Below, one piece after another: positions 2,509 to 39,113 of a stretch of 44,344 nt of DNA. The translations under genes were made by a program, and so were the position numbers. This DNA is from Phycisphaera mikurensis (GTDB taxonomy: Bacteria; Planctomycetota; Phycisphaerae; UBA1845): assembly GCA_005240095.1 (NCBI GenBank), contig SBAX01000188.1:1-44344 (forward strand), read 5' to 3'. Under the pieces are notes generated by a model, which worked only from the letters and a program-made list of their open reading frames with translations, was not told where the DNA came from and did not search any database. The stretch's first letter is position 1. Every line of letters starts with the position of its first letter.

Positions 2509-3114
2509 TTAGGCCCGCTCCCTGACGGTCGCGGTACTGATCGGGCGGCGCCAGGTGTCGATGACCGGACGAAGGAGGCGCGAGGCTTCCCGCTCGTCCC
2601 CGGATGAAAACCGAAGAATCACCTGGTTGAGGGGTTGTTTGCTGTTGGGGTGCAGGATGCGGGGAAGCAACGTTTCACGCTGTTGCTCTTCGGGAAGGAA
2701 GGCCTCGAAGACCGCGGCTTCCTCATCTCCGGACAACTCAAAGGGATAGCGAACGTCGAGTCGGGCGGCGTCGAAGGATGTCGTGCCGAAGGGCCCGAGG
2801 CGAAAGACAAGTTCGGCCGGCGAAGCGAATATGCCGACCTGGGCCGGCCAGACGGTGAGAAGGAGCCAGCGCACGGCGGTCAGAGCGGTCCACAGGGCGG
2901 TCGCCGGGAGGGGCAAGGCGATGACGGCGATGCTGTAGTCCACGAGGCGGTTGGAGACCCCGGAGGGGACGAAGTTCAAACCGCTATAGATCAACACGGT
3001 GGCGGTGCCGAGGATGGCCGCAGGTACGGCCCAGATCAGAGCACGGGTCAACGCGCGGCCACGGGACACCGGGACGACTGCAAGGGAAGCGGCCGATTCC
3101 CGCACTGTTGCCAT
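2509..3114 (-). CDS. Small membrane protein of unknown function, partner of the VWA gene
   Basis: From the ATG at 3114 the protein has 201 residues. Two hydrophobic segments (ALIWAVPAAILGTATVLIY, then YSIAVIALPLPATALWTAL) are followed by a soluble domain of about 110 residues. The frame remains open upstream to a GTG at 3177 overlapping the VWA stop, but that stretch only encodes the translated heptamer array (DNRQSTIDN), so ATG 3114 is preferred. The gene sits directly downstream of the BatA-like VWA gene on the same strand and probably shares its transcript. I do not recognise the soluble domain. It has no cysteines or obvious catalytic motif and may be an accessory subunit; this is inferred from position only. 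Confidence 0.65.
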   Translation of the reverse strand: MATVRESAASLAVVPVSRGRALTRALIWAVPAAILGTATVLIYSGLNFVPSGVSNRLVDYSIAVIALPLPATALWTALTAVRWLLLTVWPAQVGIFASPAELVFRLGPFGTTSFDAARLDVRYPFELSGDEEAAVFEAFLPEEQQRETLLPRILHPNSKQPLNQVILRFSSGDEREASRLLRPVIDTWRRPISTATVRERA

Positions 3115-3120
3115 GGTCGA

Positions 3121-3148
3121 ATTGTCGATTGTCGATTGTCGATTGTCG
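3121..3148 (-). repeat. Four tandem CGACAAT heptamers just upstream of the 3114 start
   Basis: Four perfect ATTGTCG units on the plus strand (CGACAAT in the sense of the downstream gene) occupy 3121-3148 and end six bases before the ATG at 3112-3114. The flank continues as AATG, as it does at the array at 7708-7735. The array fills the whole space in which a ribosome binding site would be expected. Confidence 0.85.
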
Positions 3149-3173
3149 AATGCGGCGTGAGGGAGGCGATCGA

Positions 3174-5210
3174 TCACACGAAGACGCGTCGGTTATAGAC
3201 GATCCATTCGAGAATAAGCAGGGCGAGGATGGCCAGCAGGAAGTAGGGCCAGGCGGGCTTGGAAGTCTGGAGAGTCGATGCTTTGGCCTCAAGCCCCTCG
3301 CCGCCGAAGACGACGCTGGGCGCCGGGGCGACATCGCTTTCGGTGGGGTTAAAGAGGTTCACGGCAAAGACGTCCTGCCCGGGGACGCCGGGGCTTACGC
3401 GATACGGACCGACGGTTCGTGTGCGGGCGTAGTGGACGGTCTGGGCACCGGCCGTGGGCACCGAGTCTGTCGTGGCGTCGGGGCGGAGGATGTCGACGGT
3501 CGGCGGTTTGGCGCCTCCTTTTTCGGCGGCCACGGGCAGTGTGACCGGTTCACCTGGGGCGACGCTGCGTGCTCCGGTGGCGGCGATGTTGGAGGAGAGG
3601 AACTGCACGGCGTTCTGCATGAAAACGACGAAGTCCACACTGGCCACCCAGTCGGTGTTCATGCGGGGCGCACCGGCCTCGTCCATGACGATGAGGCTGA
3701 AGGCGCTGATCAGGAACTGGCTCGTGTCACGGGTTAAGTAAGCGAGCACGGGTGAGGTCTGGCCGTCGATGAGGGAGACGGCGTCGGAAGGGAGCGTCAG
3801 ACGGAGCCACTGAGCAACGTCGAGAGTCTCCACGGCGATGTGGCGGAGCACGGCGTGGGTGTCATCCCAGTTGAAGATCACTTCGTTATCGACTACCGGT
3901 CCCGCGGAAACGCCTTCGATCTTAGGGATGCTGCCCCAGAAGAAGTAGTTGCCTGAAGGCAATCGATCAGTCGAGTGGCGGTCAAGGATGACGACGTCGA
4001 AGAGGCTGCGGTCGCCGTCGGCGATCTCTTCCTCGCGTGCGGACTCATACTTTGCCGGTGTCATAGTGGAAAGCTGGATGAAGAGCGTAGAGAGCACGCC
4101 CTGGAGAAAGTCATTGCCGTCGCTGACCAGGAGGACTTTCACGCGGCGGGGTGGGTCGAGGACGGTCCAGGCGCGGTCATCGGCGGAGAGGGCATCGTCG
4201 ATGTTGAGGACGACTTCGGCGATGCCGCCGCCCTCGAATTCCACGTGATCGAAGACGGCGAGGCGGCTACTGCCTGGGGGAGGCTCACCCGGGGCAGTAT
4301 CGACCGATGGATCGGTGCGGCCGCCGTCAAGGTTTAGCGTTTGCACGTCGATGCTGCGGCCCTCGATGTAGAGAGTGGCGTCCAAGGTCACGGGCTGCGG
4401 CGAGAAGTTCTGTACGGCGGCGACCACTTCGAGGAACTCGGGGCGTTCATAATCACGGCGGGCCTCCATGGCGGTGATGCCGACGTTGTCGGAGCGAGTC
4501 CCCACGTGGGTTACACGGATCTTGCTCACGTCCAGTTTCTGCGGCGTGACTCGGCGGCTGTCTTCGATGCGTCCGTCAGTGAAGAGGAAGACGGCGGCCG
4601 TGGGGGCGGCGGACTCCGGGGCGATATCGGAGCCGGCCACATCCCCCCCGATGATCACGTTCTGGGCGTAGGCCTCGGCGAGGGAGACGGCCTCGGCGAG
4701 CGTGGACGTGCTCTGGGTTTGCTCGATGGAGTCGATCTTGCGGATGAGCGCGTCCTTGTTCTGATCGAAGGACGAAACGACCGTGGCTCGATCGCAGAAG
4801 GCGATGACCATGGCGCGGGATTCGTCGCTCATGTTGGCGATGGCGGTCTTGGCCTGCTGCTTGGCGAGGTCCAGGCGGGTTTTGCCGTCGGCTTCGAGGA
4901 CGCCCATGGAGGCGGACTGATCGATGAGCAGGATGATAGTGCTCTCGGCGGTCTGCTCGCGCTGCCAGATGGGCTTGCCCAGGGCGATGGCGGCGAGGGC
5001 GAGTACGAGGAGCTGCAGCAGCAGGAGGAGACTGCGGCGTAGGCGCTGGAAAGGAGCGTTGACATGCAAGTCCTCGACCGCTCGTTTCCAGAGCAGCGTG
5101 GAGGGCACGAGGCGCACCTGGCGACGGAGCTTGAGGAAGTACAGCGCCACCAGCGGTGGAATCGTCAGTCCGGCGGCGGCGGCGATGGTCCAGGGATCGA
5201 GGAAGGTCAA
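3174..5210 (-). CDS. BatA-like membrane protein with von Willebrand factor A domain
   Basis: This 678-residue protein begins with the N-terminal BatA-type segment: a hydrophobic stretch ending VALYFLKLRRQ, a conserved loop (STLLWKRAVEDL) and a second helix (LLLLLQLLVLALAAIALG). The VWA domain follows with a near-canonical metal site, LLIDQSASMG (DxSxS), and about 400 further residues that are mostly beta structure. It ends in a final helix (FLLAILALLILEWIVYN). Family members sit in the membrane with VWA outside or inside depending on type, often with a MoxR ATPase and DUF58 protein; neither is visible here. The start is TTG at 5208-5210 with GGAG six bases upstream, and it places the BatA motif correctly at the N-terminus. 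The soluble C-terminal region may relate to glutamine-amidotransferase-like folds, but this could not be checked. Confidence 0.8.
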   Translation of the reverse strand: MTFLDPWTIAAAAGLTIPPLVALYFLKLRRQVRLVPSTLLWKRAVEDLHVNAPFQRLRRSLLLLLQLLVLALAAIALGKPIWQREQTAESTIILLIDQSASMGVLEADGKTRLDLAKQQAKTAIANMSDESRAMVIAFCDRATVVSSFDQNKDALIRKIDSIEQTQSTSTLAEAVSLAEAYAQNVIIGGDVAGSDIAPESAAPTAAVFLFTDGRIEDSRRVTPQKLDVSKIRVTHVGTRSDNVGITAMEARRDYERPEFLEVVAAVQNFSPQPVTLDATLYIEGRSIDVQTLNLDGGRTDPSVDTAPGEPPPGSSRLAVFDHVEFEGGGIAEVVLNIDDALSADDRAWTVLDPPRRVKVLLVSDGNDFLQGVLSTLFIQLSTMTPAKYESAREEEIADGDRSLFDVVILDRHSTDRLPSGNYFFWGSIPKIEGVSAGPVVDNEVIFNWDDTHAVLRHIAVETLDVAQWLRLTLPSDAVSLIDGQTSPVLAYLTRDTSQFLISAFSLIVMDEAGAPRMNTDWVASVDFVVFMQNAVQFLSSNIAATGARSVAPGEPVTLPVAAEKGGAKPPTVDILRPDATTDSVPTAGAQTVHYARTRTVGPYRVSPGVPGQDVFAVNLFNPTESDVAPAPSVVFGGEGLEAKASTLQTSKPAWPYFLLAILALLILEWIVYNRRVFV

Positions 5211-5240
5211 CTGTGGCTCCGACCGATTACCGAATATGAG

Positions 5241-5266
5241 TTACCAATTACCAATTACCAATTACC
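5241..5266 (-). repeat. GGTAATT heptamer array in the leader of the VWA gene
   Basis: Three full AATTACC units (5246-5266), preceded by a partial TTACC, read GGTAATT x3.7 in the sense of the VWA gene that starts at 5210. The array lies about 30 bases upstream of the TTG start. A degenerate unit (GGTAATC) sits nearer to it. The same heptamer occurs at 39086-39099 on the opposite strand, again in coding sense before a start codon. Confidence 0.8.
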
Positions 5267-5313
5267 GACGGCTAGCTCTCCGGCGTATTATACCGCGCTC
5301 AAACGCCAGCGCA

Positions 5314-7698
5314 TCAGGGGGGCTTTTGTTCGGCGCGGAGGCGGGCGAGGCGGTCTTCGATCCAGGGGATTAGATCGGGACGATTGGCTGCGCGGACTTG
5401 GGCCAGGCATTCGTTCATGGCTGTGATGGCCTCGTCGAGACGACCAAGGGCGGCGAGAGCAGTGGCAAGGTTGTATCGTGCGGGGATGGACGCGGGATCG
5501 GCCTCTAGCGCTCGACGATAGTGGTCGATCGCGGTATGCAACTGCCCCTGGTCAGCGAGCAGGCGGCCCAACTCGATGTGGGCGGGGGCCAGCTTTTCGT
5601 CGATCCGCACCGCCTCTTGCAGATGGTGGCTAGCCTCGGTGGGATTTCCCGTGGCCACATACGCCTTCGCGAGGCTGAAGTGAAGGTGGGCGTCGTTGGG
5701 TTTCAACTTCAGGACTTCCTGATAGGCGGCAATGGCTTCGGCGAAACTGCCGATGGCGGCCAGATCGGTGGCCTTGCGGAACAGGCGATCGGCTTCGTCG
5801 TCACGCGACGGGGCCTCGGTCGAGGTCGTCGCGGTAAGTCGGCCCAGCTCCTCACGGATGGCCGCATCGTTCGGGGCCAGCTTGGTGAGTAGTTCCATCT
5901 CGCGAGCCGCGTCATCGGCCCTTCCGGATTGGGCAAGCAGCCGGACGAGTTCCAGGCGGGGCTCGGGCTCGTCGGGCTTGAGCTTGATGGCCTGGCGGTA
6001 GCGGGCGATGGCTTCCTCGACCTGGTTGGTGCCCGCGAGCATCCGGGCCAGAGCGAGGTGCGGCTCGGCGAAGGTAGGAGCGATTGCCGCAGCTTTGTCG
6101 AGACTGGCCTCGGCTTCGACGACACGACCTCGCTTCAGATCCAGCAGGCCCATCTGGTACCAGGCGAACTCATTGTCGGGATACGCCTCGATGGCGCGGC
6201 GGAAGGCGTGCTCGGCCTCTTCGAGGCGGTCCTGCTGCCGCAGCTTGGCGGCAAGGTTCACGAAGCCGACGCTGTGGTATGGGGCTTCGTTGACGATGGG
6301 CCAGTTCGCGGCGAAGGCCGTGGCCAGAGCAACCGCGGAAGCAAACGTGATGCGGCGGACCGTTCGGATGGCGGGGTATTCGATCAGGGCGGCGATTCCT
6401 GCGCTGGCGGTCAAGACCAGCAGCGGCACGAGCGGCAATCGGAAGCGGGCGAAGACGAAGAACAGGGCCACAGAAAGGGTGATGGAGGCGATGAGGACTG
6501 GGATGATCCAAGTGCGTCTCCGTTGGCCGGCGATCAACACCAATCCCGTAAGTCCAAGGGGCGCCAGGACGCCGAAATGAAGAATGCGAAGCGGTATGCC
6601 GAGCAGGGACGCCCATTCCGCATAGAGGGCGATGTCCTCGGCGTCGGGGGGCTCGAAGCGGTTCCACACCAGGAGGACCTTGTGGACGAGCAGGCGAAGC
6701 CACACGCCGGGATGCTCGCGGACGAATTCCAGACCGCGGCGCAGCCAGAAGGCGGAAACTTCTCCGGGAGACATGGCGCGGCCCGCGGTCTGCTCGGCGA
6801 TTCGGATGGCGTCTTCGCGTTCCTGGCGCGGATCCTGACGGCCGCGGTAGAAGGAGTCGTACAGGCCCGTGGCCTCGGAGTTGTTGCCGATGTAGAAGTT
6901 CTGCCCGGCGTTGGAGGTGGTGACGGCGAACACTGAGCCGACGGAGTAGTTGCGAACGGCGACGAGGAGCAGGGGCATCGCGGCGAACGCGAGAAAGACG
7001 CCCCCGAGCCGGAACCGGGTGGCGAGCGGCGAGTCGTTACCCGCCTTTGTCCCCTTTTGTGAAGTGGGGAGGCAGGCGGCGAGCACCCTCCTGTGCGTTG
7101 CCAGCAACAGCCATAGGGGGACGACGATCAGGAGTATTAGCATGTTTTCCTGAGTGAGAGCCAACAAGGCGGCGACGAACCCGGCGAGGGCGATCTTGGA
7201 CCAGGACTCGCGCTCGGTGATGCCGGCGAGCAGGTACAGAAACAACGCGGTGAGGAACAGCAGCAGGTTGGCCTTGTGAAGGATCCCGTCGAAAAAGATA
7301 GCCGGTGGGTACACGGCCAGGAGTAATCCGGCGAGCAAGCCCGCGTTAGGACCGAACCATCGCCGACCCGCACCGTGAATCAAAGCGCAGGAAGCCGCTC
7401 CGAGCACCATCTGGACGACGTGAACGAGCATCAGGCTGCGCCCGAACAGAGCGTAGAGGATCGCGAGGAAATAGGGATATGCGGGAGCCAGGAAGAAGAC
7501 TTCGCCGGACCACCATCCACCGGCTGCAATCCGCTCCGCCCATTCGTCATAGAACCGGCCGTCGACGGTTGGCGAGTCGAAGAAGGGGATCGATTGGATC
7601 TGGTACAGGTACAGGAGACGCACGGCCAAGGCGACGGTGAATACGAGTGCGCCATGGGAAATGTAGACGGACCGCTTCATAGCGTGGGGCGCTGTCAT
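5314..7698 (-). CDS. Polytopic GT39/PMT-like glycosyltransferase fused to C-terminal TPR repeats
   Basis: The 794-residue protein has two halves. Residues about 15-460 are polytopic with roughly ten hydrophobic helices. The first periplasmic loop contains TVDGRFYDEW, the acidic pair expected of GT-C (GT39/ArnT-like) enzymes that use polyprenyl-phosphate sugars. Residues about 470-785 are a run of TPRs (for example EFAWYQMGLLDLKRGRVVEA and HLHFSLAKAYVATGNPTEA). Transfer of a sugar to an exported protein or lipid is plausible, but the acceptor is unknown. Start ATG 7696-7698 is preceded by a CGACAAT array and lies 60 bases after the MOSC gene stop. Near residue 206 the loop LPTSQKGTKAGND is encoded by a palindromic repeat seen elsewhere in the window. 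Confidence 0.8.
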   Translation of the reverse strand: MTAPHAMKRSVYISHGALVFTVALAVRLLYLYQIQSIPFFDSPTVDGRFYDEWAERIAAGGWWSGEVFFLAPAYPYFLAILYALFGRSLMLVHVVQMVLGAASCALIHGAGRRWFGPNAGLLAGLLLAVYPPAIFFDGILHKANLLLFLTALFLYLLAGITERESWSKIALAGFVAALLALTQENMLILLIVVPLWLLLATHRRVLAACLPTSQKGTKAGNDSPLATRFRLGGVFLAFAAMPLLLVAVRNYSVGSVFAVTTSNAGQNFYIGNNSEATGLYDSFYRGRQDPRQEREDAIRIAEQTAGRAMSPGEVSAFWLRRGLEFVREHPGVWLRLLVHKVLLVWNRFEPPDAEDIALYAEWASLLGIPLRILHFGVLAPLGLTGLVLIAGQRRRTWIIPVLIASITLSVALFFVFARFRLPLVPLLVLTASAGIAALIEYPAIRTVRRITFASAVALATAFAANWPIVNEAPYHSVGFVNLAAKLRQQDRLEEAEHAFRRAIEAYPDNEFAWYQMGLLDLKRGRVVEAEASLDKAAAIAPTFAEPHLALARMLAGTNQVEEAIARYRQAIKLKPDEPEPRLELVRLLAQSGRADDAAREMELLTKLAPNDAAIREELGRLTATTSTEAPSRDDEADRLFRKATDLAAIGSFAEAIAAYQEVLKLKPNDAHLHFSLAKAYVATGNPTEASHHLQEAVRIDEKLAPAHIELGRLLADQGQLHTAIDHYRRALEADPASIPARYNLATALAALGRLDEAITAMNECLAQVRAANRPDLIPWIEDRLARLRAEQKPP
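7041..7075. repeat. In-frame palindromic repeat inside the glycosyltransferase-TPR gene
   Basis: The plus strand reads CCTTTGTCCCCTTTTGTG and then AAGTGGGGAGG, a diverged version of the C-rich/T-G-T/G-rich hairpin at 9971-10003. It lies in a cytoplasmic or periplasmic loop between membrane helices, where it encodes LPTSQKGTKAG on the minus strand without shifting the frame. Confidence 0.5.
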
Positions 7699-7707
7699 TG
7701 ACAGGGC

Positions 7708-7735
7708 ATTGTCGATTGTCGATTGTCGATTGTCG
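7708..7735 (-). repeat. Four tandem CGACAAT heptamers upstream of the 7698 start
   Basis: Four perfect ATTGTCG units (plus strand) occupy 7708-7735, followed by AATG. In the sense of the downstream gene they read CGACAAT x4 and end nine bases before the ATG at 7696-7698. Confidence 0.85.
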
Positions 7736-7761
7736 AATGAAGGACGCCCGCAGGTCCGGGC

Positions 7762-8568
7762 TCACGTCAGGGCCGGCCCGTCGAGCAATGCCAGCGGGTC
7801 ACCGGCGCGGACTACGCCTTCCACGAGCACGGCCGCGTAGATTCCGGCCTGGCCGTCGTGGCCCTTTGCTACTCGCCGCAGAACCTCCGGATTGGACTGG
7901 CCGGTGTCCGGATCAAGGGTGATCATCTTGCAGCGGGCGTCGCGGTCCATCACCGCGATCTCCACCCTCGCGCCGATCCGCAGCCGGCACTCCACCCACG
8001 TGTTCTCAGAAAACGCTGCACCTCCATCCAGATTCACGTAGAGGTTGGCGCGGAAACGCCGCTTGTCCAGTTCGCTGCCGACTTCCCCGCTCAACTGCTG
8101 CACGGTCTGGATGGAGATCAGCGAAACCGGGCGGCAATCGGTGAAGGCACGATCGGACGTTAGCAGCGAAAGCATGGGGGCGTCCCGCACACCCTCGCGG
8201 AGCAGGTCGATCAGTCGCGGATCGTCAACCGGTAGTACGTCGCCTGCCGGCGTCCGCACGTCGACGATTCGATCGGCGGGGTCCGCGTACAGGGGGGTGA
8301 CCCCGGGGCCGAGCGCCTCGGCCTCCGCCAGATTGGGCGGCATCACCATTCTGTCCGCATGCCGATAGGCCGCGTGATACCGCAGCATCTGCTCCTGTTC
8401 GCGGGCGGTGAAGTACGGGAACCCTTTGGGGGCTGCCGAGCTGTGGAAGGCGTACAAACGGTCGCCGTACATGCCGGGGAAGCCCACAAAGACTTCTCGC
8501 AGCTCCTCGCCTGCCATGCTCTTCACGGGATAGCGCCACAGGCTTTCGATTCGTCCAATCACTTTCAT
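7762..8568 (-). CDS. MOSC domain-containing protein (MOSC_N + MOSC, YcbX/mARC-like)
   Basis: From ATG 8566-8568 this is a 268-residue protein. It starts with the MOSC N-terminal beta-barrel signature (IGRIESLWRYPVKSMAG), and the C-terminal MOSC domain contains RDARCKMITLDPDTG with Cys213 as the conserved cysteine. MOSC proteins bind the sulfurated molybdenum cofactor and act in reductive or sulfur-transfer reactions in the cytoplasm, usually with a redox partner; none is visible nearby. A good Shine-Dalgarno (GAGGAG) sits about seven bases upstream of the chosen ATG. Reading further upstream would only add residues antisense-free but overlapping the end of the kinase gene, so that extension is rejected. 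The gene lies 13 bases after the kinase stop at 8582 and so may be cotranscribed with it. Confidence 0.9.
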   Translation of the reverse strand: MKVIGRIESLWRYPVKSMAGEELREVFVGFPGMYGDRLYAFHSSAAPKGFPYFTAREQEQMLRYHAAYRHADRMVMPPNLAEAEALGPGVTPLYADPADRIVDVRTPAGDVLPVDDPRLIDLLREGVRDAPMLSLLTSDRAFTDCRPVSLISIQTVQQLSGEVGSELDKRRFRANLYVNLDGGAAFSENTWVECRLRIGARVEIAVMDRDARCKMITLDPDTGQSNPEVLRRVAKGHDGQAGIYAAVLVEGVVRAGDPLALLDGPALT

Positions 8569-8581
8569 AGCGGCAACTCCT

Positions 8582-11500
8582 CTATTCCTTGAGTCCGATC
8601 TTTTGAACCAGGGCCTCGAAGCGGGGGTCGGCCCGAAGCGGATCGAAGACCGGGGCTGTACGAAGAAAAAGCAGCCACCAGGTGGCGGGCTCGTCGGCGG
8701 CCTTGTCCAGCCACTCAAACGCACGGCCCACATCACCCAGCCCCAGATGGCACATCGCTATGAACGCGGGGTCCACGCGCGTAGAGCCGGTGCGGTCGAC
8801 CAGGGCATCGGTTGCCCGCAGCGCCGCGTCCCTCTGACCCGCCGAGGCCTGTGCTCGCACCAGCGCCGGCACGCGTTCATCCATGGCGTCCGTTCCCGCA
8901 AGGTCGCTGATGACCTCGTTGTATCTGCCTTGCTCATTCCATGCCAGAGCTCGCAGCGCTCGCGCCCAGTAGAAATCCGGCGAGAGGGAGAGCACTTTTT
9001 CGCATTGTTCGATGGCCCGCGGATAGTCGCGGTCGTTGTAGTAGGCAAAGGCGACGTCGGCCGTGGTAATGAAGGAGAGCGGGTCGAGTCTCTGCCCGCG
9101 GCTCGCCGCCTCGATCGCATCCTTGGTTTTGCCCTGTGACAGGAGATAGAAGGCATGAATCTCGTGAGCCCGTCCGCTGTCCGGGTTGACGTCGAAAGCG
9201 TCCTTCAGGTGTCGCTCGACCGTTGCCCCGTTGCGGTCGGAAAAAAGCGCCGTGGCCGCCAGTGAGGCATGGGCGTCGGCAAGCTGCGGATCAAGCTGCA
9301 GGGCCGTCTGGGAGGCCGCCCGCGCCTTGGCAAACGTTTCACGGGGAGGTTCAAGGAAGGAAGCGGCCAGGACGTTGTAGGTCATCGCCAGCCCCGCGTG
9401 TGCTGCGGCGTACTTGGGGTCAAGCTCCACCGCTTCGTTGAAGTGGCTGAGGGCCTTGCGCCAATCTTCGGGAGTAAACTGATTCCAGGCAAAGAGCCCG
9501 CGCAGGTAGGCTTCGTGCGCCGCAGCATGCCTGGTGGGCGCGCGGGAAAGCAGGGCGCGCTCGCCGGGCAGCAGCTCCACGGCCATGCGCCGGGCGACGT
9601 GCTCGGCGACTTCCTTCTGCACCGCGAAGATGTCCTCCAGCGTGCGGTCGAAGTCCTGCGACCACATCTGAGTCTGGTCGCCGGCCTGGATCAGCTTGGC
9701 GGAGATGCGGACGCGGTCGGCCGTCCGCCGTACGCTGCCTTCCAGCACGTACCCCACGCCCAGCTCCCGGGCGATGTCCGTGATCGTACGGTCCGCGTTC
9801 TTGTAGCGCATCGCCGACGTGCGCGCGATCACTCCGAGCTTCTGCGGGTTGATCCGACCGAGTTGGCCGATCATCTCCTCGGTTAGCCCGTCGCTGAAGT
9901 AGTCCTGCTCCGGGTCGCGACTGAGGTTCTCGAAGGGAAGCACAGCGAGCATGATCCTACCGTCGGCCAACCCCCCCTTGTCCCCCCTTTGTAAGGGGGG
10001 AGGTTGTGGCGCCGTCGACGGCATCCGTGCCGGCGGCGGCAGGCCGACGCGGCGCATGAGGTCGATGAAACGCGGGTCGGTTCGCAAATTGGCGAAGAGC
10101 TGTGCCTTCAAGGTGCCCACCAGCAATGGGTCGCGCTCGCGATAGGCCTTCTCTAACCAGTCGAATGCAAGTTCGACTTCGTCCAGCCCGGCGTGAAGCA
10201 CGGCGAATAAGGCTGGTGCGACGTACGCATCGTTCAACCGGGTTGTAAGCTCCTCGAGAATTCTTCGGGAAACTTCGGGTCGGCCCGACTTCGCCGCGGC
10301 GTAGCCTAGCATGGCCATACACCAGGGATCGTTGCCGGACAGCCGAACGGCCTCGCGAGCCTCATTCATCGCTTCCACGAATTTCCCCTGTGCGAGCAAG
10401 GCCCTGGCGAGCTCGGCGCGGGCAATCGGGAAAGTCGGCGCCAGTTCGAGGGTCTTTCGGAACCGCGTCTCAGCCTGGGCGAAATCCCCCGCATAGTAGG
10501 CCACGACACCGACCATGTTGCTGATCTCGGGCGAGAGGGGATCAAGCTCCCGCGATCGGCCGGCCTCCTGAGTCGCTTCTTCGTACCGGCTTAGTCGCAT
10601 GTGCAGGGTCGCGTACCATTGACGGGCTCTGGCGGAATTGGGGCTTAGCGTCAGGGCCTGCTGGAACTTTCGCTCCGCCACGGGCCAGTCCCAGTCGTAG
10701 ATCGTTGCGATTTGGGCCAGCGCGGCATGTCCTTCGCCCAGCGATCCGTCCAATTCCACGGCCTTTGCGGCAGCAGCCCGGGCTTTGGGGATGGCCTCGC
10801 TGGGCCTCATGTAGCCAAAGGCCGGCACAAACAGATGAAGTTCCGCAAATCCCAGGTATCCCTGCGGCCAAGCTGGTTCCAGCTTCATGGCCTGCTCAAA
10901 GCATTCCGCGGCCCTTTCGGAACTTTCGGGCGTCCGTTTCTCCAGATAGAACCGGCCCTTCAGATAAGCCTCGTACGCTTCGGGGTTGATGGGGCGCGCC
11001 TCCACCATTCGCGCCTGCTCTTGGGGGTGAAGCGTTACCGAGATCTCGCGGGCGATGGTCTGGGCGACGTTGTTCTGCCAGGTCAGCAGGTTCTTCACTT
11101 CCGGGGCGAAGCTGTCGGCCCAGATCTGACTTTGACTGGTCGTATCGACCAGCCGGGCGGTGATGCGGATTTCGTCCTCGTGACGGCGGACGCTTCCTTC
11201 GACGACGTAATCAACCCCCAGCTCTTCCTTGATGTGCGGGATGGTCCGATCCGTGTTCTTGTAGTGCATGGCCGACGAACGGGCGATCACGCCGAGTTTC
11301 TGCGGGTTGACCCGGCCGAGCTGGGTAATCATCTCCTCGGTGAGCCCGTCGCTGAAATAGTCCTGCTCCGGATCCCGGCTGAGGTTCTCGAAGGGAAGCA
11401 CGACGAGCATGATCCTGCCGCCGGTGACCCCCCAGTGTCCTCCCTTGTTAAAGGGGGAAGCCGTGGCTTCTCTTCCTCCATCAAGTGGAGAGGTGGTCGC

Positions 11501-13975
11501 CTCTCTGTGCTTGTCCGGACCGGAGTCCGTCGGCAGGCCCACGCGGCGGAGAAGGTCATCGAAGCGAGGATCGCTACGCAAGGGATCCCATTGGGGCATA
11601 ACGCCCAGGAAAACCATCCACGTATCACGAGCCTCGTAGGCCTTTTCCAGCCACGAAAACGCCTCCCCCGGCTCGCCTAATCCCACATAGATCGTCGCGA
11701 TCATGGACGGCGGGACATAGCGCGATCGGCTGAGTGCGAGCCAGTCGGCCAGCAACGCGCGGGTTTCGGTTTCATGCCCGGCCCGCGCCAGACCATAACC
11801 CAGATTGCACGCCGCAAGTGCGAAGGAAGGCGCCAGCTCCAGGGACTTGCGCATGTGCGCCAGCGCCTCGTCGGTCTGATCCAGCTCCAGCAGGGCGAGC
11901 CCGGCCCCGTGGTGCAGCAACGGGAACTCCGGAGCGAACTGCAGACCGGCGCGCATGCGTGACAACATCTCGTTCCAATCGCGTTCCCAGTGGGCAATCC
12001 ATCCCAGGTTGTGAAAGAAGATCGGCGCCAGCGGGTCCAGTTCGATAGCGCGAAGCAATTCTGCGCGCGCCTCCGCCATTCGTCCCTGAATGCCGGCGTT
12101 CAGGGCGTACCACTGATGAGCCGTCGCATAGCGCGGGTTGAGCTTCATCGCCCGCTGGAAATCCTGTTCCCCCCTCTTTAAGTCCCACTCGAGGTAGAAT
12201 CGGACCATGCCCATCGAGGTGTGCGCCTCGGCCAACTGATCATCCAGCCGGAGGGCCCTTTCGGCCGCATCCCGCGCCTTGACCAGCGCGTCCGCTGGGG
12301 CGAGGTAGCCTTGGAGCGGAAGCAGGACGTAGGTATCGGCAATGCCGCTGTGGGCCAGCGCAAACGTCGGATCGATCTGTACGGCCTGGTCGAGCAGTCG
12401 CAGGGCGTTGTCGAATCCTTCCTTGGTCCGCTTGCTCCACCAGAAGCGACCCTGCAAATACAGGCGGTAGGCTTCGGCGTTTTCGCTGTATCCGCGAGAG
12501 ATTTTGCGCTTCTCCTCGCCGGTCAGGCGCAGCCGCAGGGCGTCGGTGATGTCCGCGGCGATGTCCCGCTCGATCTGGACTAAGTCCTCGAACTTGCGCT
12601 GATACCGCTCGCCCCAGAGCTGTCGGCTTTCGGTGACGCTTACCAGCTCCGCCTGGACGGTCAGGCTGTCGGCCCGTTTGAGCACTCGTCCAGTGAGGAC
12701 AGCCGTCGCGGAAAGATCACGCCCCAGTTCCGCCGGTTCATCCAGACGGTTCTTGTGCCGAAAAACGGTGCTGCGCGGGATGACCTTCAACCCCTCAAGC
12801 CGGGAAAAGCCGTTGATCAGGGTCTCGGTGATGCCATCGGTGAGGTAGTCGAGTTCGGCATCGCCGGAGTCGTTGGCGAAGGGCAGGACGGCCAGAGTCG
12901 GAGTTTCGCGCATGGATCGCGCCGTAGCGGGGGCGTCGGAGAGGCGTGCGGAGGTGCGTGACCCTGCGTCGGCGGCCGAATGCCGCCGTGCCTGGCGAAG
13001 CTCGCGGCGCACGAACCCTGCGCCGGCCAGCACGGCCGCGATGACAATGCAGGCAAGTACAGCGCGACCGGGGCGAAACGAGCGCCGCACCGTGGGGGGT
13101 GGGGGGGATTCGCTGTGGGAAAGCAGTGAGCGCAGAGAGAAAGCAAGGTCCGCGGCGGACTGGAAACGCCGTTCCGGGCGCTTCTCCAGGCAGCGGTCGA
13201 TGAGCCGTTCGAGCTCCAGCCCAACCCCGGACGCGGAGGATCGCACGCCGGCGGGTTCGTCCTTGAGGATCGCGGTCATTGTGTCGGCGGCGGTCTCGCC
13301 GAGGAAGGCGCGCCGGCCGGTGAGCATTTCGTACATCACGCAGCCGAAGGCGAAGATGTCCGTTCGGGCGTCGGTGGGCAGGGCCCGGATTTGTTCCGGG
13401 GCCATGTAGCAAAGCGTGCCGATGATTGCCCCCGGCCGCGTCTCGATCGTCAACGTCGGCGAGCTGGCCAGGTCGTGGACGGTCCCTTGTCCCGCGCCCG
13501 TCGATCGCGCCAATCCGAAGTCGAGGATCTTCACCTGGCCGTCGGCAGTGAGGAAGATGTTCTCGGGTTTGAGATCGCGGTGAATGACACCCTTAGCATG
13601 AGCTGCGGAAAGGCCCTCGGCAATCTCGATTCCCAGCTCCACCGCCTTTCGCGGCGACAGCGCGGACCGATCAATCCGCGAGCGGAGCGTCTCGCCCTCG
13701 AGAAGCTCCAGCACGACATAAGAAATGTCCTCATGTCGTCCCACATCGAACACGGCAAGGATGTTGGGGTGGGAGAGCGCGGCGACGGCCTTGGCCTCGC
13801 GCTCGAAGCGGGCCAGCGCCTGGGGATCGCGGGCGGTCGCCTCGGGCAGGACTTTGACGGCCACGTCGCGGTCCAGGCGCGTATCTCGTGCGCGATAGAC
13901 TTCACCCATGCCCCCTGCTCCCAGCGGAGCGAGGATCTCATACGGTCCCAGGCGCGTGTTCGGGGTCAGGCCCAT
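8582..13975 (-). CDS. Giant receptor-type Ser/Thr kinase with three TolB-like + TPR modules (1797 aa)
   Basis: Residues about 12-285 form a complete Hanks-type kinase: LGAGGMGEVY P-loop, VAVKVLP lysine, HRDLKPEN catalytic loop, DFGLA and MAPEQ. A membrane helix follows at about 302-322. The rest is three tandem modules of about 490 residues starting near 357, 853 and 1339. Each begins with a TolB-like segment of the kind found in adenylate-cyclase/TPR proteins (LPFENLSRDPEQDYFSDG in modules 2 and 3, LPFANDSGDAELDYLTDG in module 1), continues with TPRs, and ends near DPRFDDLLRRVGLP. Modules 2 and 3 are nearly identical over the TolB-like start. The two linkers are encoded by palindromic repeats. 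ATG 13973-13975 places GPYEIL at the N-terminus as in the paralogues. The kinase is cytoplasmic and the modules periplasmic if the helix spans once. The ligand is unknown. Confidence 0.9.
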   Translation of the reverse strand: MGLTPNTRLGPYEILAPLGAGGMGEVYRARDTRLDRDVAVKVLPEATARDPQALARFEREAKAVAALSHPNILAVFDVGRHEDISYVVLELLEGETLRSRIDRSALSPRKAVELGIEIAEGLSAAHAKGVIHRDLKPENIFLTADGQVKILDFGLARSTGAGQGTVHDLASSPTLTIETRPGAIIGTLCYMAPEQIRALPTDARTDIFAFGCVMYEMLTGRRAFLGETAADTMTAILKDEPAGVRSSASGVGLELERLIDRCLEKRPERRFQSAADLAFSLRSLLSHSESPPPPTVRRSFRPGRAVLACIVIAAVLAGAGFVRRELRQARRHSAADAGSRTSARLSDAPATARSMRETPTLAVLPFANDSGDAELDYLTDGITETLINGFSRLEGLKVIPRSTVFRHKNRLDEPAELGRDLSATAVLTGRVLKRADSLTVQAELVSVTESRQLWGERYQRKFEDLVQIERDIAADITDALRLRLTGEEKRKISRGYSENAEAYRLYLQGRFWWSKRTKEGFDNALRLLDQAVQIDPTFALAHSGIADTYVLLPLQGYLAPADALVKARDAAERALRLDDQLAEAHTSMGMVRFYLEWDLKRGEQDFQRAMKLNPRYATAHQWYALNAGIQGRMAEARAELLRAIELDPLAPIFFHNLGWIAHWERDWNEMLSRMRAGLQFAPEFPLLHHGAGLALLELDQTDEALAHMRKSLELAPSFALAACNLGYGLARAGHETETRALLADWLALSRSRYVPPSMIATIYVGLGEPGEAFSWLEKAYEARDTWMVFLGVMPQWDPLRSDPRFDDLLRRVGLPTDSGPDKHREATTSPLDGGREATASPFNKGGHWGVTGGRIMLVVLPFENLSRDPEQDYFSDGLTEEMITQLGRVNPQKLGVIARSSAMHYKNTDRTIPHIKEELGVDYVVEGSVRRHEDEIRITARLVDTTSQSQIWADSFAPEVKNLLTWQNNVAQTIAREISVTLHPQEQARMVEARPINPEAYEAYLKGRFYLEKRTPESSERAAECFEQAMKLEPAWPQGYLGFAELHLFVPAFGYMRPSEAIPKARAAAAKAVELDGSLGEGHAALAQIATIYDWDWPVAERKFQQALTLSPNSARARQWYATLHMRLSRYEEATQEAGRSRELDPLSPEISNMVGVVAYYAGDFAQAETRFRKTLELAPTFPIARAELARALLAQGKFVEAMNEAREAVRLSGNDPWCMAMLGYAAAKSGRPEVSRRILEELTTRLNDAYVAPALFAVLHAGLDEVELAFDWLEKAYRERDPLLVGTLKAQLFANLRTDPRFIDLMRRVGLPPPARMPSTAPQPPPLQRGDKGGLADGRIMLAVLPFENLSRDPEQDYFSDGLTEEMIGQLGRINPQKLGVIARTSAMRYKNADRTITDIARELGVGYVLEGSVRRTADRVRISAKLIQAGDQTQMWSQDFDRTLEDIFAVQKEVAEHVARRMAVELLPGERALLSRAPTRHAAAHEAYLRGLFAWNQFTPEDWRKALSHFNEAVELDPKYAAAHAGLAMTYNVLAASFLEPPRETFAKARAASQTALQLDPQLADAHASLAATALFSDRNGATVERHLKDAFDVNPDSGRAHEIHAFYLLSQGKTKDAIEAASRGQRLDPLSFITTADVAFAYYNDRDYPRAIEQCEKVLSLSPDFYWARALRALAWNEQGRYNEVISDLAGTDAMDERVPALVRAQASAGQRDAALRATDALVDRTGSTRVDPAFIAMCHLGLGDVGRAFEWLDKAADEPATWWLLFLRTAPVFDPLRADPRFEALVQKIGLKE
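9971..10005. repeat. In-frame palindromic repeat at the module 2/3 junction of the giant kinase
   Basis: The plus strand contains CCCCCCTTTGTAAGGGGGG (9982-10000), a hairpin with an eight-base stem and three-base loop, preceded by a second C-run (9971-9977) followed by TTGT. On the minus strand it encodes the linker PPPLQRGDKGGLADG immediately before the third TolB-like module. It does not disturb the reading frame. Confidence 0.7.
11428..11493. repeat. In-frame palindromic repeat pair at the module 1/2 junction of the giant kinase
   Basis: Two adjacent palindromes: CTCCCTT-GTTA-AAGGGGG (11440-11457) and CTCCA-TCAAG-TGGAG (11476-11490). On the minus strand they encode TSPLDGGREATASPFNKGG, directly before the second TolB-like module. 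The first palindrome is a variant of the element at 9971-10005. Confidence 0.65.
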
Positions 13976-13983
13976 CCGAAGCT

Positions 13984-14018
13984 ATTGTCGATTGTCGATT
14001 GCCGATTGTCGATTGCCG
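13984..14018 (-). repeat. Five tandem CGRCAAT heptamers upstream of the giant kinase start
   Basis: Five ATTGYCG units (ATTGTCG, ATTGTCG, ATTGCCG, ATTGTCG, ATTGCCG on the plus strand) fill 13984-14018. In the sense of the kinase gene the array ends eight bases before ATG 13973-13975. The rest of the divergent intergenic region, to 14170, holds no recognisable operator. Confidence 0.85.
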
Positions 14019-15646: not shown

Positions 15647-18322
15647 TCATGACCGAGGCGGCACTTTGGCCTTGAGTTCCTCGGACCAGTTCAGGATGAC
15701 ATTGATCTGTCTGCGGCCCAGGCCGGGGTTCGCGGAACGAAGGACCACGAATCGCTTGCCGTCCGGGGTGATGTCAAAAGTGCGCAGGTCGCGCTCGGCC
15801 CGCCGACCAGGTGGAAACTCAAACAGCTTGCGGGGCGCGCCCGCCGTGATTTTCGTTTCCGCGGCGTCGATCGACACGGCCATCATCTCGTCGCCATGTA
15901 CGTAATACAGCTCCTTGCCGTCCGGGGCCCACAGGGGCACGATTCCTCCGTCCACCGAAACCTGCCACTTAGCACCCTGTCCGGACGCCGGCTTGATGAA
16001 GATATCGTCGATCGAGCCTTCCTGCGAAGTGTATGCCAGCCAACGTCCATCGGGCGAGACCATGCCGCCGTACTGTGCAAACGGTTCTTCCCAAAGCGGG
16101 CGCGCCGGGGCACTGCCGTCGATGGGGACGACCAGCACGTCAGAGACTCCGCTGCCGTACTTCTGGAAGAGCACCGTGGACCCGTCCGGGGTTACGCCGC
16201 TGACGAGGACCGGGTCGCGGTCGGAGTGGATCACCTGCGGAGTTTCGCTGCCGTCGAGCGTCAGCACTTTGAGCTGATAAGCGCCGGCCTCGGCTCGATA
16301 GACGACGCGCCGCTGGTCCGGCGTCCAGTACGGACTGTTGCACTTCTGATCGAAGGTGATGCGAGTCATGGTTCCCCGCGCCAGACTGTACAGCCACAGG
16401 TCGCCGGCGGCGCGCGCCGGACCGGCTGCCATCAAGAGCTGGGTTCCGTCCGGCGAGACGCGGACCTGGTTGTAGAGTCGAAGCGGCGCCCCGACCGGCT
16501 CGATCTTGCCCTCCATGTCCACCCACACCAGCTCGTCCATGTCGTCCGCCGCTCCCGGCACGTAGGCCAGAGTGCCATCTTGTGACACACTGAAGTGCGA
16601 CGCTCCGCTGGTGTCCTCCCCGCCCACGCCGTCGAGGACCGGCAGGGGGGCCGTGGTCACCTTCGGGTCGCGAGGGTCGATGGGCGCAGCGAAGAGAACG
16701 CCGCCGCGGGCGAACACAACGTGGCCGGGCGGTGCGAAACGCGCCATTCGCCCGCCGCTCACCAGCACCCGCCGCTCGCCCGTCCTGAGCGATACGGCCT
16801 CGACATTCGAGCCGTCATAGCCGCCGGGACTGTCGATCGTGCCGACGGTGAACAGCACCCACTCGCCGCCGGGCATGACGTCCGGCCAGCGATGGGTCCG
16901 CTCGCGCTTTTCGGCGATCAGCGTGGTCACCGCCTCGGGCGTTCCTCCGCCCGCTGGCAACCGCATCAGCGGTGAACCGAAGGTTGGCACAAAGACGATC
17001 GTCTGTTCCTCGACCCAGGCGCCCGAGCGGCTCTCAACGGAGTCCGCCAGCGGAATGGCGATCCCGCCCCGCACGGACACCTTTCGCAGCTTCCCGTTGG
17101 AGAAGAATCCGATCCACTGCCCATCCGGAGAGAAGAACGGGTCGTAGGCGCCCTCGGTCCCTGGGAGCTTCGTGGCGTCGCGCTGGTCGAGTCGGCGAAG
17201 GTAGAGGTTGATTGCGCTGCCCGTGCGGGCGCAATAGGCCAGCGACTGTCCGTCCGGCGAAAGGGCGATGGCGAGATTCTCCAGTCCGGCGTCGACCACG
17301 TCCGAGCCCGGTAGCATCACGCTCAGATGCGATGGGCGGGCCAACGGCGCATCGTCGGGCACCAGCCAGGCCGTGGCGGCCAGGACCCCCATGGCCAGGG
17401 CTGCGCACCAGCCGACGAGGGCCGCGGCCTTCCTTTGAGTTGGAATAACGGCCGCAGCGGCGGCTTGTGACCCGCCTTCGGTGATCCAGCGGAGCTCGTC
17501 GGCGACATCGGCCGCGCTTTGCCAGCGCGAATCGGGGTCCTTTTGCAGACACTTGCGGATGAGCCGATCCAGCGCCGGCGGAGTCATGGGCTGAAGCTCG
17601 CTGATCGGGCGTGGCTGCGCGGACATGATCGAGGCGATCAGGCTGGCCCGGCTGGCTCCCTCGAAGGCCCGCTTGCCGGTGGCCATCTCATAGAGCAGCG
17701 CCCCCAAAGCGAAGATGTCCGTCCGCGCGTCCGCCTCGGCTCCTTCCAACTGTTCCGGGGCCATGTACTGGAACGTCCCGACAATCGTGCCTTTGCTGGT
17801 CAGCGGTTGTGAGACGGTGACCGCGCTGGGATCGCTTTCCAGCACGGCCGCGGGCTTGGCCAGCCCGAAGTCCAGCAGCTTGGCCCCCGTCCTGGTGAGG
17901 ATCACGTTCCCGGGCTTGAGGTCCCGGTGGACCACGCCCTTGCGATGGGCGGCATCCAGCGCCGAGGCGATCTCCGCGCCGTGGCGCAGAACCTGCTCGA
18001 GCGGGAGCGGTCCTTTTGACAGCCGCTGAGCCAGCGACTCGCCCTCGAGCAGCTCCATCACCAGGAAATCGGTGCCGTCATGATGCCCCACGTCGTGCAG
18101 CGTGCAGATGTGCGGATGGGTCAACTGTGAGATCGACCGGGCCTCCCGATCGAATCGTTGCTTGAACTCGACGTTGCGGGAAAGGTGCGCCGGAAGCACC
18201 TTGACGGCCACCTCGCGATCCAGGCGCGTATCCCGGGCGCGATAGACCTCCCCCATGCCCCCCGCGCCGAGGGGCGAAAGGATTTCGTAGGGGCCGAGTT
18301 TTGCGCCGGTCGAAAGACTCAT
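15647..18322 (-). CDS. Receptor Ser/Thr kinase A with C-terminal TolB/PD40-like propeller
   Basis: This 891-residue protein has an intact kinase (LGAGGMGEVY, VAVKVLP, HRDLKPGN, DFGLA, MAPEQ) at residues about 12-275, a membrane helix near 299-322 (LVGWCAALAMGVLAATAWL), then about 560 residues of beta-propeller. Typical PD40 repeats are ALSPDGQSLAY, FFSPDGQWIGF, RVSPDGTQLL and MVSPDGRWLAY. It ends in NVILNWSEELKAK. The propeller type matches that of kinase D at 23672 (both contain PGTEG and an LNW..EEL end). The ATG (18320-18322) overlaps the stop of kinase B as ATGA, so translational coupling is likely. It is the last kinase of the run. Autophosphorylation on binding of a periplasmic ligand is the expected mode of action; ligand and targets are unknown. 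Confidence 0.9.
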   Translation of the reverse strand: MSLSTGAKLGPYEILSPLGAGGMGEVYRARDTRLDREVAVKVLPAHLSRNVEFKQRFDREARSISQLTHPHICTLHDVGHHDGTDFLVMELLEGESLAQRLSKGPLPLEQVLRHGAEIASALDAAHRKGVVHRDLKPGNVILTRTGAKLLDFGLAKPAAVLESDPSAVTVSQPLTSKGTIVGTFQYMAPEQLEGAEADARTDIFALGALLYEMATGKRAFEGASRASLIASIMSAQPRPISELQPMTPPALDRLIRKCLQKDPDSRWQSAADVADELRWITEGGSQAAAAAVIPTQRKAAALVGWCAALAMGVLAATAWLVPDDAPLARPSHLSVMLPGSDVVDAGLENLAIALSPDGQSLAYCARTGSAINLYLRRLDQRDATKLPGTEGAYDPFFSPDGQWIGFFSNGKLRKVSVRGGIAIPLADSVESRSGAWVEEQTIVFVPTFGSPLMRLPAGGGTPEAVTTLIAEKRERTHRWPDVMPGGEWVLFTVGTIDSPGGYDGSNVEAVSLRTGERRVLVSGGRMARFAPPGHVVFARGGVLFAAPIDPRDPKVTTAPLPVLDGVGGEDTSGASHFSVSQDGTLAYVPGAADDMDELVWVDMEGKIEPVGAPLRLYNQVRVSPDGTQLLMAAGPARAAGDLWLYSLARGTMTRITFDQKCNSPYWTPDQRRVVYRAEAGAYQLKVLTLDGSETPQVIHSDRDPVLVSGVTPDGSTVLFQKYGSGVSDVLVVPIDGSAPARPLWEEPFAQYGGMVSPDGRWLAYTSQEGSIDDIFIKPASGQGAKWQVSVDGGIVPLWAPDGKELYYVHGDEMMAVSIDAAETKITAGAPRKLFEFPPGRRAERDLRTFDITPDGKRFVVLRSANPGLGRRQINVILNWSEELKAKVPPRS

Positions 18323-26401: not shown

Positions 26402-26443
26402 CGCGCGATCATTCTCAACCGTCGAAGGGGGCCTGTCGATCCG

Positions 26444-29167: not shown

Positions 29168-29472
29168 GTCGGCGCCCATTGTCGACTATGGACCTGACGT
29201 TGTCGAATCGGTCCCGGCGAATGCACGTGTCTGGCGATCGGGTGATCTCGCCTGCGCGAACGCCTTGGTGCCAAATCCGGTGACACTGGTTTCGTTATCG
29301 GCTGCGATCGCACGGTGAGTTATCACTCGTCGGAGCGCTGAGAAGTTCCGCGCCAGTGCCGCGCGGCGGCGCTATAATGGACTGATTCGGGATGACATAG
29401 TCGAACACGCACGGCTATCGGCGGGACGGCCGCTTTCTCGAATCGCAGCGGAGAATCCAAGCCGGGGGTGGG
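29168..29472. other. Divergent intergenic region between the kinase run and the TSP3-repeat gene
   Basis: About 305 bases without a gene. It holds one ATTGTCG unit (29178-29184) by the kinase start, a related TTGTCGAAT further on, and a perfect TATAAT at 29373-29378 on the plus strand about 95 bases before the TSP3-repeat gene. No good -35 box at 16-18 bases precedes that -10 (the best, TTCCGC at 29346, is 21 bases away), so the promoter is tentative. No RNA gene or long inverted repeat was seen. Confidence 0.4.
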
Positions 29473-37841: not shown

Positions 37842-39056
37842 ATGCGAAAGCCGGGGCGGTGGATCGAAGGTTGTCTGTCGGAATGGTTCAAGGCATGCGC
37901 GGCGATAGCCATGCTGGTTGGGTCGGCGGGCTGCCCTACGGTGGTCTTGCCGCCCGACGAGGGCGACGGTAACGGCGATGGTCAGGTGATCGACGGGAAC
38001 CGCGACGAGTCAGCGACCAGCCCGTTGGGCAAGACGTCCGGTGAGCCGAACGACGATTTCGATGAGCCGGTGGTAGCTGTGTTCGACAGCCAGGGGGTGG
38101 CTCGATTGCAGGGCACGGTGGCCGAGGTCGGAGACATTGACGTGTATCTGCTGGGCAGTCTGGCCGCAGGCGACGACCTTCGCGTGGATGCTTATGCCTC
38201 CGGCTCGTCGCTGGATATCACCATCGCCTTGTTCGATGCCGAGGGCCGCTTGGTGGTCAACAACGATGATTTCGACCCTTCGCGTTCCTTCGACGCTCTC
38301 GTGGACTTTACCGTCCGCCATGATGGGAATCGGTACTATCTGGCGGTGTCACACTCTCCCTTCGGGTCTCCCAGTCGGCTGACGGGCGGATACCGCGTAG
38401 ATATCGAGTTTGACGCCGGGAGCGATGTGCCGTCGCCCGTTGGGCAGGTTGTGTTCCTCGATTTCGATGGGGCCGTGATCACTTCGCCGGAGTTGCTGAG
38501 CGCAATCGGAGTGACCTCACTGACTCTTGCTCCCTTGGACGCGGCGGACATCTCGTCGGTGTATGAGGGGCAGACACAGACCCTCAAGGACCGGATTCGC
38601 GAGGTGTTCGAGCAAAACTACGAACGCTTCGACATGACCGTGCTAACCAGCGACGACCCGTCGCCTGCTGCGGGAACGGAGTTCACCACCGTTTACTTTG
38701 GTGGTTTTGACCGAAGCATTTTTGGCATCGCCGAAGACGTGGACCTGTACAACGCGGACCGCTGCGATGACGCTTTGATCTTTGCGGAGACGTTCTCGCC
38801 GGCCGTGTTCTCCGGAGTGCCCAGTGCGCGGGAGCTGGGCACGGCCATCGCCAACGTCGCGGCGCACGAGGCCGGACACCTGCTGGGGCTTAACCACACG
38901 GACGACGACGAAGACTTGATGGACGATCAGTCCCCGGCCGACGCTTTTCTGCTGGACCAGGAGTTCAAGCTCGCGCCGCTCTCCGGCGATATCATCCCGC
39001 TTGGCTGGCAGGACGGCGTGCTCTTGCTCAACGAGATCGTAGGACCGACTCAGTGA
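37842..39056 (+). CDS. Lipoprotein metalloprotease, HExxHxxGxxH type, with pre-peptidase-like domain (2)
   Basis: From ATG 37842 the protein has 404 residues. GGAG lies six bases upstream; the frame open from 37695 is rejected because the extension lacks signal-peptide character. The lipobox is GSAGC after ACAAIAMLV. A D/G-rich stretch (DEGDGNGDG) leads into a PPC-like domain: GTVAEVGDIDVYLLGSLAAG and SLDITIALFDAEGRLVVNND. The zinc site is HEAGHLLGLNH at residues 342-352, followed by EDLMDD. Same domain order as the preceding gene, with IANVAAHEAGH replacing NVASHEIGH. The end (LDQEFKLAPLSGDIIPLGWQ) also matches the first paralogue (LLLDQEFATSPIY...FPLGEQD). Probably secreted to the envelope. 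Confidence 0.82.
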   Translation: MRKPGRWIEGCLSEWFKACAAIAMLVGSAGCPTVVLPPDEGDGNGDGQVIDGNRDESATSPLGKTSGEPNDDFDEPVVAVFDSQGVARLQGTVAEVGDIDVYLLGSLAAGDDLRVDAYASGSSLDITIALFDAEGRLVVNNDDFDPSRSFDALVDFTVRHDGNRYYLAVSHSPFGSPSRLTGGYRVDIEFDAGSDVPSPVGQVVFLDFDGAVITSPELLSAIGVTSLTLAPLDAADISSVYEGQTQTLKDRIREVFEQNYERFDMTVLTSDDPSPAAGTEFTTVYFGGFDRSIFGIAEDVDLYNADRCDDALIFAETFSPAVFSGVPSARELGTAIANVAAHEAGHLLGLNHTDDDEDLMDDQSPADAFLLDQEFKLAPLSGDIIPLGWQDGVLLLNEIVGPTQ

Positions 39057-39071
39057 AGCCGTTGTTGTATC

Positions 39072-39099
39072 GGTCCTTGGTCCTTGGTAATTGGTAATT
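39072..39099 (+). repeat. GGTCCTT/GGTAATT heptamer array upstream of the zinc-ribbon gene
   Basis: Four heptamers in a row: GGTCCTT, GGTCCTT, GGTAATT, GGTAATT, followed by GGTGGTAACC and the GTG start at 39114. The GGTAATT unit is the same as at 5246-5266 but on the other strand, again in the sense of the downstream gene. Confidence 0.8.
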
Positions 39100-39113
39100 G
39101 GTGGTAACCGGTT

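Follow-up and report, generated by a model that had tools for sequence, protein, structure and literature searches.

Heptad arrays in the window

The stretch of DNA analysed here (the window; 44,344 nt, contig SBAX01000188.1 of the Phycisphaera mikurensis assembly GCA_005240095.1) contains three tandem arrays of the heptamer CGACAAT, all on the minus strand and each ahead of a gene on that strand. Array 1, four units at 3121–3148, has its 3' end 6 nt from the ATG at 3114 of a gene (2509–3114) encoding a 201-aa protein with no Pfam match, and the stop codon of the upstream gene lies 25 nt away; about 28 homologues favour this start over the longer ORF from GTG 3177. Array 2, also of four units (7708–7735), precedes a gene for a PMT_2-type glycosyltransferase with TPR repeats (5314–7698) by 9 nt if translation starts at ATG 7698; the in-frame ATG at 7680 is just as good a candidate, so the spacing could be 27 nt. 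Array 3 (13984–14018) consists of five units in the order CGGCAAT, CGACAAT, CGGCAAT, CGACAAT, CGACAAT and ends 8 nt before ATG 13975 of a Ser/Thr protein kinase gene with TPR repeats (8582–13975), a start in keeping with the N-terminus that kinases usually have (the Pfam Pkinase match begins at residue 12). The positions, the sense orientation and the spacings of 6, 9 and 8 nt agree with a preliminary description of this DNA, except that 7698 is one of two plausible starts; its statement that all units read CGACAAT in the gene's sense is correct for orientation but not for array 3, in which three units are CGACAAT and two are CGGCAAT. A search of eight array sources against Rfam 15 returned no family above gathering score at the arrays, only one unrelated tRNA.

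Adjacent CGACAAT pairs occur at seven overlapping places in the window, compared with 0.00 expected from 100 shuffles, while single copies outside arrays are close to chance over the whole window (9 versus 5.7 expected). The single minus-strand unit at 29178–29184, before a kinase start, which the preliminary description had offered as further evidence, is of this chance-level kind, overlaps an in-frame ATG and was left out of the array class. Two other heptad features had been overlooked: a TTGGTAA array (gene sense, minus strand) at 5241–5266, 30 nt ahead of a BatA/VWA gene that starts with TTG at 5210, GGAG lying between the two, and two adjoining arrays at 39072–39102, GGTCCTT then TTGGTAA on the plus strand, 15 nt past the stop of the plus-strand gene 37941–39056. 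The window also carries paralogous large genes at 15647–29179, at least one of which (26444–29179) encodes a Ser/Thr kinase with WD40-like PD40 propeller repeats.

Anatomy of the repeat class

The host assembly (G000; 4.67 Mb, 488 contigs), a MAG of a planctomycete and not of a cyanobacterium, contains 43 overlapping two-unit CGACAAT matches, or about 29 arrays, and none for the reversed control. With imperfect units included, unit number peaks at four heptads in the host (17/32), in a congener (G001, 11/20) and in a Planctomycetota MAG (G013, 10/16); it is more spread in a second such MAG, G006. In the first three genomes the arrays are usually preceded by CAAT or CATT. Units of one array differ in two or three letters with AAT constant, and the end phase is fixed. 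In related genomes CAAT[CT] is kept while the inner letters vary inside one array, as in AATCCCCAATCGACAATCCGCAAT, which defines the class as CAAT[CT]NN at 7-nt spacing rather than as one microsatellite.

Within 453 kb of sampled genome, tandem arrays are common only at periods of 7 and 8. Octamer arrays such as TTTCTGCG, CTTCGTCG and TTTTGACG often adjoin heptads and are a second tandem-repeat class; they comprise about two to four units (TTTCTGCG, CTTCGTCG, TTTTTGAC and GGCACGAA in L079 at about 9300–9400 and in the L031–L070 sample), often lie directly 5' of heptads and are also found in frame within CarB. A dispersed hairpin, GGTGCGAGAAGGGATTCTCGCACC, lies upstream of an array at the same place in a host locus (L040) and its congener counterpart (L080), and occurs elsewhere too (L078).

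Arrays are also read through in frame within linkers of what we take, from their translated sequences rather than a family search, to be CarA, CarB, UvrA, MutS2, a 3-hydroxyacyl-CoA dehydrogenase and an NfeD-like protein, giving the peptide QSTIDNRQSTIDN; other heptads read in frame yield LPIANCQLPIANC and similar peptides. CGACAAT units occupy the same CarB linker in G001 and G013, and other heptads are found in the partial CarB of the host. Separately, the peptides PPLQRGDKGG or PPLARGDEGG, SPQPSPLKGEG and TPLPGGEG recur as in-frame linkers (in the window kinase 8582–13975, in CarA of L073 and in L035 at 6070–7890), which suggests that more dispersed-repeat families have invaded protein linkers.

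Distribution and candidate movers

Among the matches listed, three consecutive CGACAAT units occur in GTDB genomes of at least ten phyla, with representatives in Planctomycetota, Desulfobacterota, Bacteroidota, Verrucomicrobiota, Spirochaetota (Brachyspira), Chloroflexota, Acidobacteriota, Cyanobacteria, Pseudomonadota, WOR-3, Synergistota and Peribacteria. Within the family to which the window belongs, (AATYNNN)4AAT arrays are present in 20 of 51 genomes and absent from the rest; presence varies even inside genera, and some array-bearing genomes contain more than 70 matches. We found no published report of CGACAAT or CAATCNN arrays in a literature search that lay largely outside subscription journals. 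One genome, G022, is alone in matching the reversed control pattern (4+4 times), suggesting that it harbours a different heptad family. MAGs form the majority of the genomes, which would be the ground for suspecting an assembly or annotation artefact; the same arrays are present in isolates (Longitalea luteola, Neorhodopirellula pilleata) and in the single-contig genomes G060 and G024, and the reversed pattern scores zero in nearly all genomes, leaving an artefact with a negligible probability.

Several candidates for the agent of spread were considered. A virus-borne repeat was rejected, as only 6 of 2.9 million viral contigs contain CGACAAT x3. Reverse transcriptase was rejected as the maker: RVT_1 is absent from the array-rich G013, G024, G061, G066 and G035 and present in many array-free genomes. 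A strong Y1 transposase match was found in 18 of the 18 genomes with at least two array matches and in 14 of 33 others (p = 3e-5, with the threshold chosen afterwards). The 20 Y1 transposase genes that were read had no heptad array nearby, save one about 3.6 kb off, and these genes are flanked by their own palindromes rather than by heptads. The REP-associated Y1 transposase was accordingly rejected as the mover, and its association with arrays is taken to be confounded. The proposal in the preliminary description that the arrays mark preferred insertion sites is not established, since none of the candidate movers found support.

Position and polarity at gene borders

The position of CAATC arrays with at least three units was tested in 135 arrays from eight planctomycete genomes and 143 from other phyla; gene borders were called with a simple home-made codon-usage gene finder and all tests were symmetric. 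Counting borders no more than 30 nt away, 37 of the planctomycete arrays have a sense start at their 3' end and three have an antisense start at their 5' end (p = 2e-8); the stop of an antisense gene is found at the 3' end of 38 arrays and the stop of a sense gene at the 5' end of six (p = 9e-7). The same holds in other phyla within 30 nt, at starts (26 sense to 5 antisense, p = 2e-4) and at stops (35 at the 3' end to 2 at the 5' end, p = 1e-8), the p-values being slightly optimistic because a few of these loci are mutually homologous. CGACAAT arrays point into genes from both sides.

Distances are sharply constrained at each border. Start distances of 5–9 nt account for 21 of 61 cases, against an expected one in six (p = 6e-4), and 36 of 73 stop distances are 4 nt or less (p = 8e-9), with the junction often reading TAG followed directly by ATTGTCG. 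These counts come out in favour of the preliminary description in the test that it had proposed, a peak of sense-oriented arrays just ahead of starts. The start class dominates in the host and its congener, and the stop class in G006 and in two genomes with degenerate arrays (G060, G024). The border rule is not universal for all heptads: G049, which carries AATCTCA-type arrays, shows neither start nor stop adjacency. Arrays of opposite orientation within 150 nt of each other lie on the 5' side, pointing outward, in 70 cases and on the 3' side, pointing inward, in 3.

Array leaders and their conservation

At starts, the arrays take up the window of the Shine–Dalgarno (SD) sequence. An SD core is present in none of the 24 listed close array–start spacers, compared with 29% of genes in the host genome, where no CAAT-like ribosome-binding motif precedes starts apart from the arrays themselves. 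Pairing of the arrays with the anti-SD was rejected, as the duplex of (CGACAAT)4 with the 16S tail has an energy of +0.4 kcal/mol. Predicted fold energies are −3.8 kcal/mol for (CGACAAT)4 and −7.1 kcal/mol for (ATTGTCG)4, and direct reading shows that CGACAAT in sense is free of start and stop codons in all frames, whereas its complement ATTGTCG has TTG in every frame. The TTG codons and stronger structure of the complement may account for the survival of the sense orientation alone ahead of starts. From these sequence properties, SD-independent initiation from an open array leader appears plausible.

The arrays are poorly conserved at orthologous genes, with a few exceptions. The 201-aa protein encoded behind array 1 has homologues in 29 genomes of the family; the upstream regions that were read contain no array, and intergenic lengths are similar wherever the upstream stop is visible. 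Among the roughly 20 arrays of the sister species G001, one start-proximal array is conserved with the host (L040 and L080), at 30 of 32 nt identical over a gene background of about 66% (p = 2.5e-4). In two Chloroflexi (L132 and L145) an identical four-unit array lies 6 nt before a GTG start in flanks that are 88.6% identical. Conservation of these few arrays amid diverged flanks indicates a function beyond mere tolerance. Two Bacteroidales have a stop-codon array in common, one with five units and the other with four, and their homology ends at the array; homologous Brachyspira loci contain 10–14 units (12, 10, 14). Arrays turn over between most species, yet can persist long in place; a translation enhancer would be expected to be conserved at orthologous starts, which the arrays mostly are not.

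Two further observations concern related loci. Ser/Thr kinase genes with an array before the start occur in two species (L101 and L102 of G013, and 13975 in the window) and are paralogues rather than orthologues. In four sets of loci (L177/L203, L134/L151/L194, L192/L199 and L111/L214), inter-species homology covers the array and the gene on its 3' side and ends at or near the 5' side of the array; the arrays may be recombination borders.

Model for the border arrays

These data have led us to propose, with about an even chance of being right, that the arrays are a dispersed polar heptad repeat, (CAAT[CT]NN) x ~4–5, which collects at the borders of genes, its 3' end turned towards the gene. 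The heptad anatomy, the four-unit mode in three genomes, the polarity at starts and antisense stops and the outward pairs are observed, as are the in-frame copies in proteins, the patchiness among close relatives and the low conservation at orthologous genes. Copies would spread by some process and settle as near to coding sequence as selection allows, the limits probably being roughly 6 nt upstream of start codons and roughly 0–4 nt downstream of stop codons. Ahead of a start, an array would fill the SD window with a G-poor, weakly structured leader devoid of start and stop codons, from which the gene may be initiated without an SD; the opposite orientation would be disfavoured by the TTG start codons that ATTGTCG carries in every frame and by its more stable folding. 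The start-proximal site would then be an allowed, perhaps mildly favoured, niche and not the dedicated function of the element. Properties of the leader leave the stop class unexplained; for that class, spread or growth in a polar fashion, or a role at the DNA level, has to be invoked as well. Against the proposal count the few arrays conserved amid diverged flanks, the failure of the G049 arrays to adjoin starts, the lack of support for any candidate mover and the reliance on a home-made gene finder for the gene borders.

A bolder extension, which we consider improbable, invokes a trans-acting system: either a protein recognises CAATC at seven-base intervals in DNA or RNA, or a template-driven polymerase writes the repeat, with AAT as its alignment seed. 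Such a system would mark or colonise gene borders in many bacterial phyla, always pointing into the gene; at 5' borders it would supply an SD-independent initiation leader, and at 3' borders an inverted tag.

According to another explanation, ribosomal protein S1, a cold-shock-like protein or a dedicated regulator binds the repeats in the leader, and the genes of a regulon are controlled through them at initiation. This explanation accounts for the sense bias with 5–9 nt spacing, for leaders that lack an SD and for the arrays conserved upstream of one pair of orthologues in the genus and upstream of a start in two Chloroflexi, and it has the precedent of the TAACTGA repeats, for which MacGregor proposed translational control (PMC4679880). 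However, an RNA reader would meet AUUGUCG and not CGACAAU in the opposite-strand copies just behind stops (38 and 35 cases), copies occur inside proteins, the homologues of the 201-aa gene lack the array, and no general CAAT motif precedes other starts; we regard this explanation as rather unlikely. The preliminary description had suggested a translation enhancer or RNA-binding site, and orientation, spacing and SD-free spacers still speak for it; it cannot explain everything, given the arrays at antisense stops, the copies within coding sequences and the absence of arrays from most orthologous genes.

The excess of outward over inward pairs (70 versus 3), with pairs making up one third of arrays in other phyla, raises the question of whether the element in its native form consists of two inverted arms, (GATTGNN)n–loop–(CAATCNN)n, forming an intergenic RNA hairpin or DNA cruciform with a role in processing, stability or termination, single arrays being halves. 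Several loops are short and A-rich (6–10 nt), and paired arms fold with z-scores of −4.6 to −7.9. The variable letters of the two arms match no better than arms taken from different pairs, however, and this lack of covariation gives no support to a helix under selection; the three arrays of the window are unpaired and fold no better than shuffles, and outward pairs are also expected from arrays that point into genes on both sides. We consider this hairpin reading improbable. Ordinary slippage microsatellites tolerated between genes would explain why unit number differs at some homologous loci (the Bacteroidales and Brachyspira cases above), and the known excess of heptamers in bacteria has been ascribed to slippage (PMC4692102). 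Homogeneous units and a decaying copy number are not what is seen: letters vary around a constant AAT, the mode is four units in G000, G001 and G013, end phase is fixed and placement polar, and only periods 7 and 8 are common, so that slippage is very unlikely as the explanation.

If the border rule is true, a widespread dispersed repeat keeps to a fixed direction and stops short of start and stop codons alike, with edges sharp almost to the nucleotide. This would tie the evolution of the repeat to translation or to gene-border biology and provide a handle, from sequence alone, on the factor responsible.

Comparison with known repeat systems

The STRRs of heterocystous cyanobacteria are likewise intergenic tandem repeats of heptamers, present in many copies per genome, but differ in sequence and host. 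REP and BIME elements, mobilised by REP-associated tyrosine transposases, are short intergenic repeats that are dispersed and often form inverted pairs, as the heptads do; REPs are palindromic and flank their transposase, whereas the heptad arrays have neither a palindromic unit nor linkage to the Y1 transposase genes that were read. In Geobacter metallireducens, families of four tandem 7- or 8-nt units, some of them inside genes, occur in tens of copies with the consensus GGACCGG or GTTGCTYN and are annotated as putative RNA or regulator sites (PMC2700814); they share the four tandem units and differ in consensus, and their annotation records no border polarity. The Xanthomonas GGGAATC and Nostoc GGGGA(C/T)T repeats are heptameric and intergenic, those of Xanthomonas most often with four units (PMC4692102), but these G-rich units form quadruplexes, of which CGACAAT is incapable.

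The closest precedent is provided by the TAACTGA heptamers of Beggiatoaceae, Cyanobacteria and Bacteroidetes, direct repeats of 2–6 copies that are mostly intergenic (MacGregor 2015, PMC4679880). They are forward-oriented ahead of starts over the position of the ribosome-binding site, with the SD mostly absent and a patchy distribution among phyla, and translational control was proposed for them (PMC4679880). The likeness to cyanobacterial heptamers drawn in the preliminary description was fair as to kind, although the nearest counterpart is the TAACTGA repeat of Beggiatoaceae. CGACAAT arrays are also intergenic tandem heptamers in few copies, lack an SD at repeat-bearing starts (0/24 spacers) and have a strong forward bias at starts (37 versus 3), yet of 135 arrays 37 are at starts and 38 at antisense stops. 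The unit differs (CGACAAT, or CAAT[CT]NN, with varying inner letters), four units are typical in the host and two related genomes, and the largest spacing class ends 6–7 nt before the start rather than 1 nt. Antisense stops are an equal target here, and outward pairs and in-frame linkers are common. If the border rule is true, start-proximal heptamers, TAACTGA included, should not be labelled ribosome-binding or regulatory sites until their placement at antisense stops has been checked. The arrays described here are a variant of start-proximal heptamer repeats with a second, equal class at antisense stops, and the original reading of them as occupants of the ribosome-binding site was partly right.
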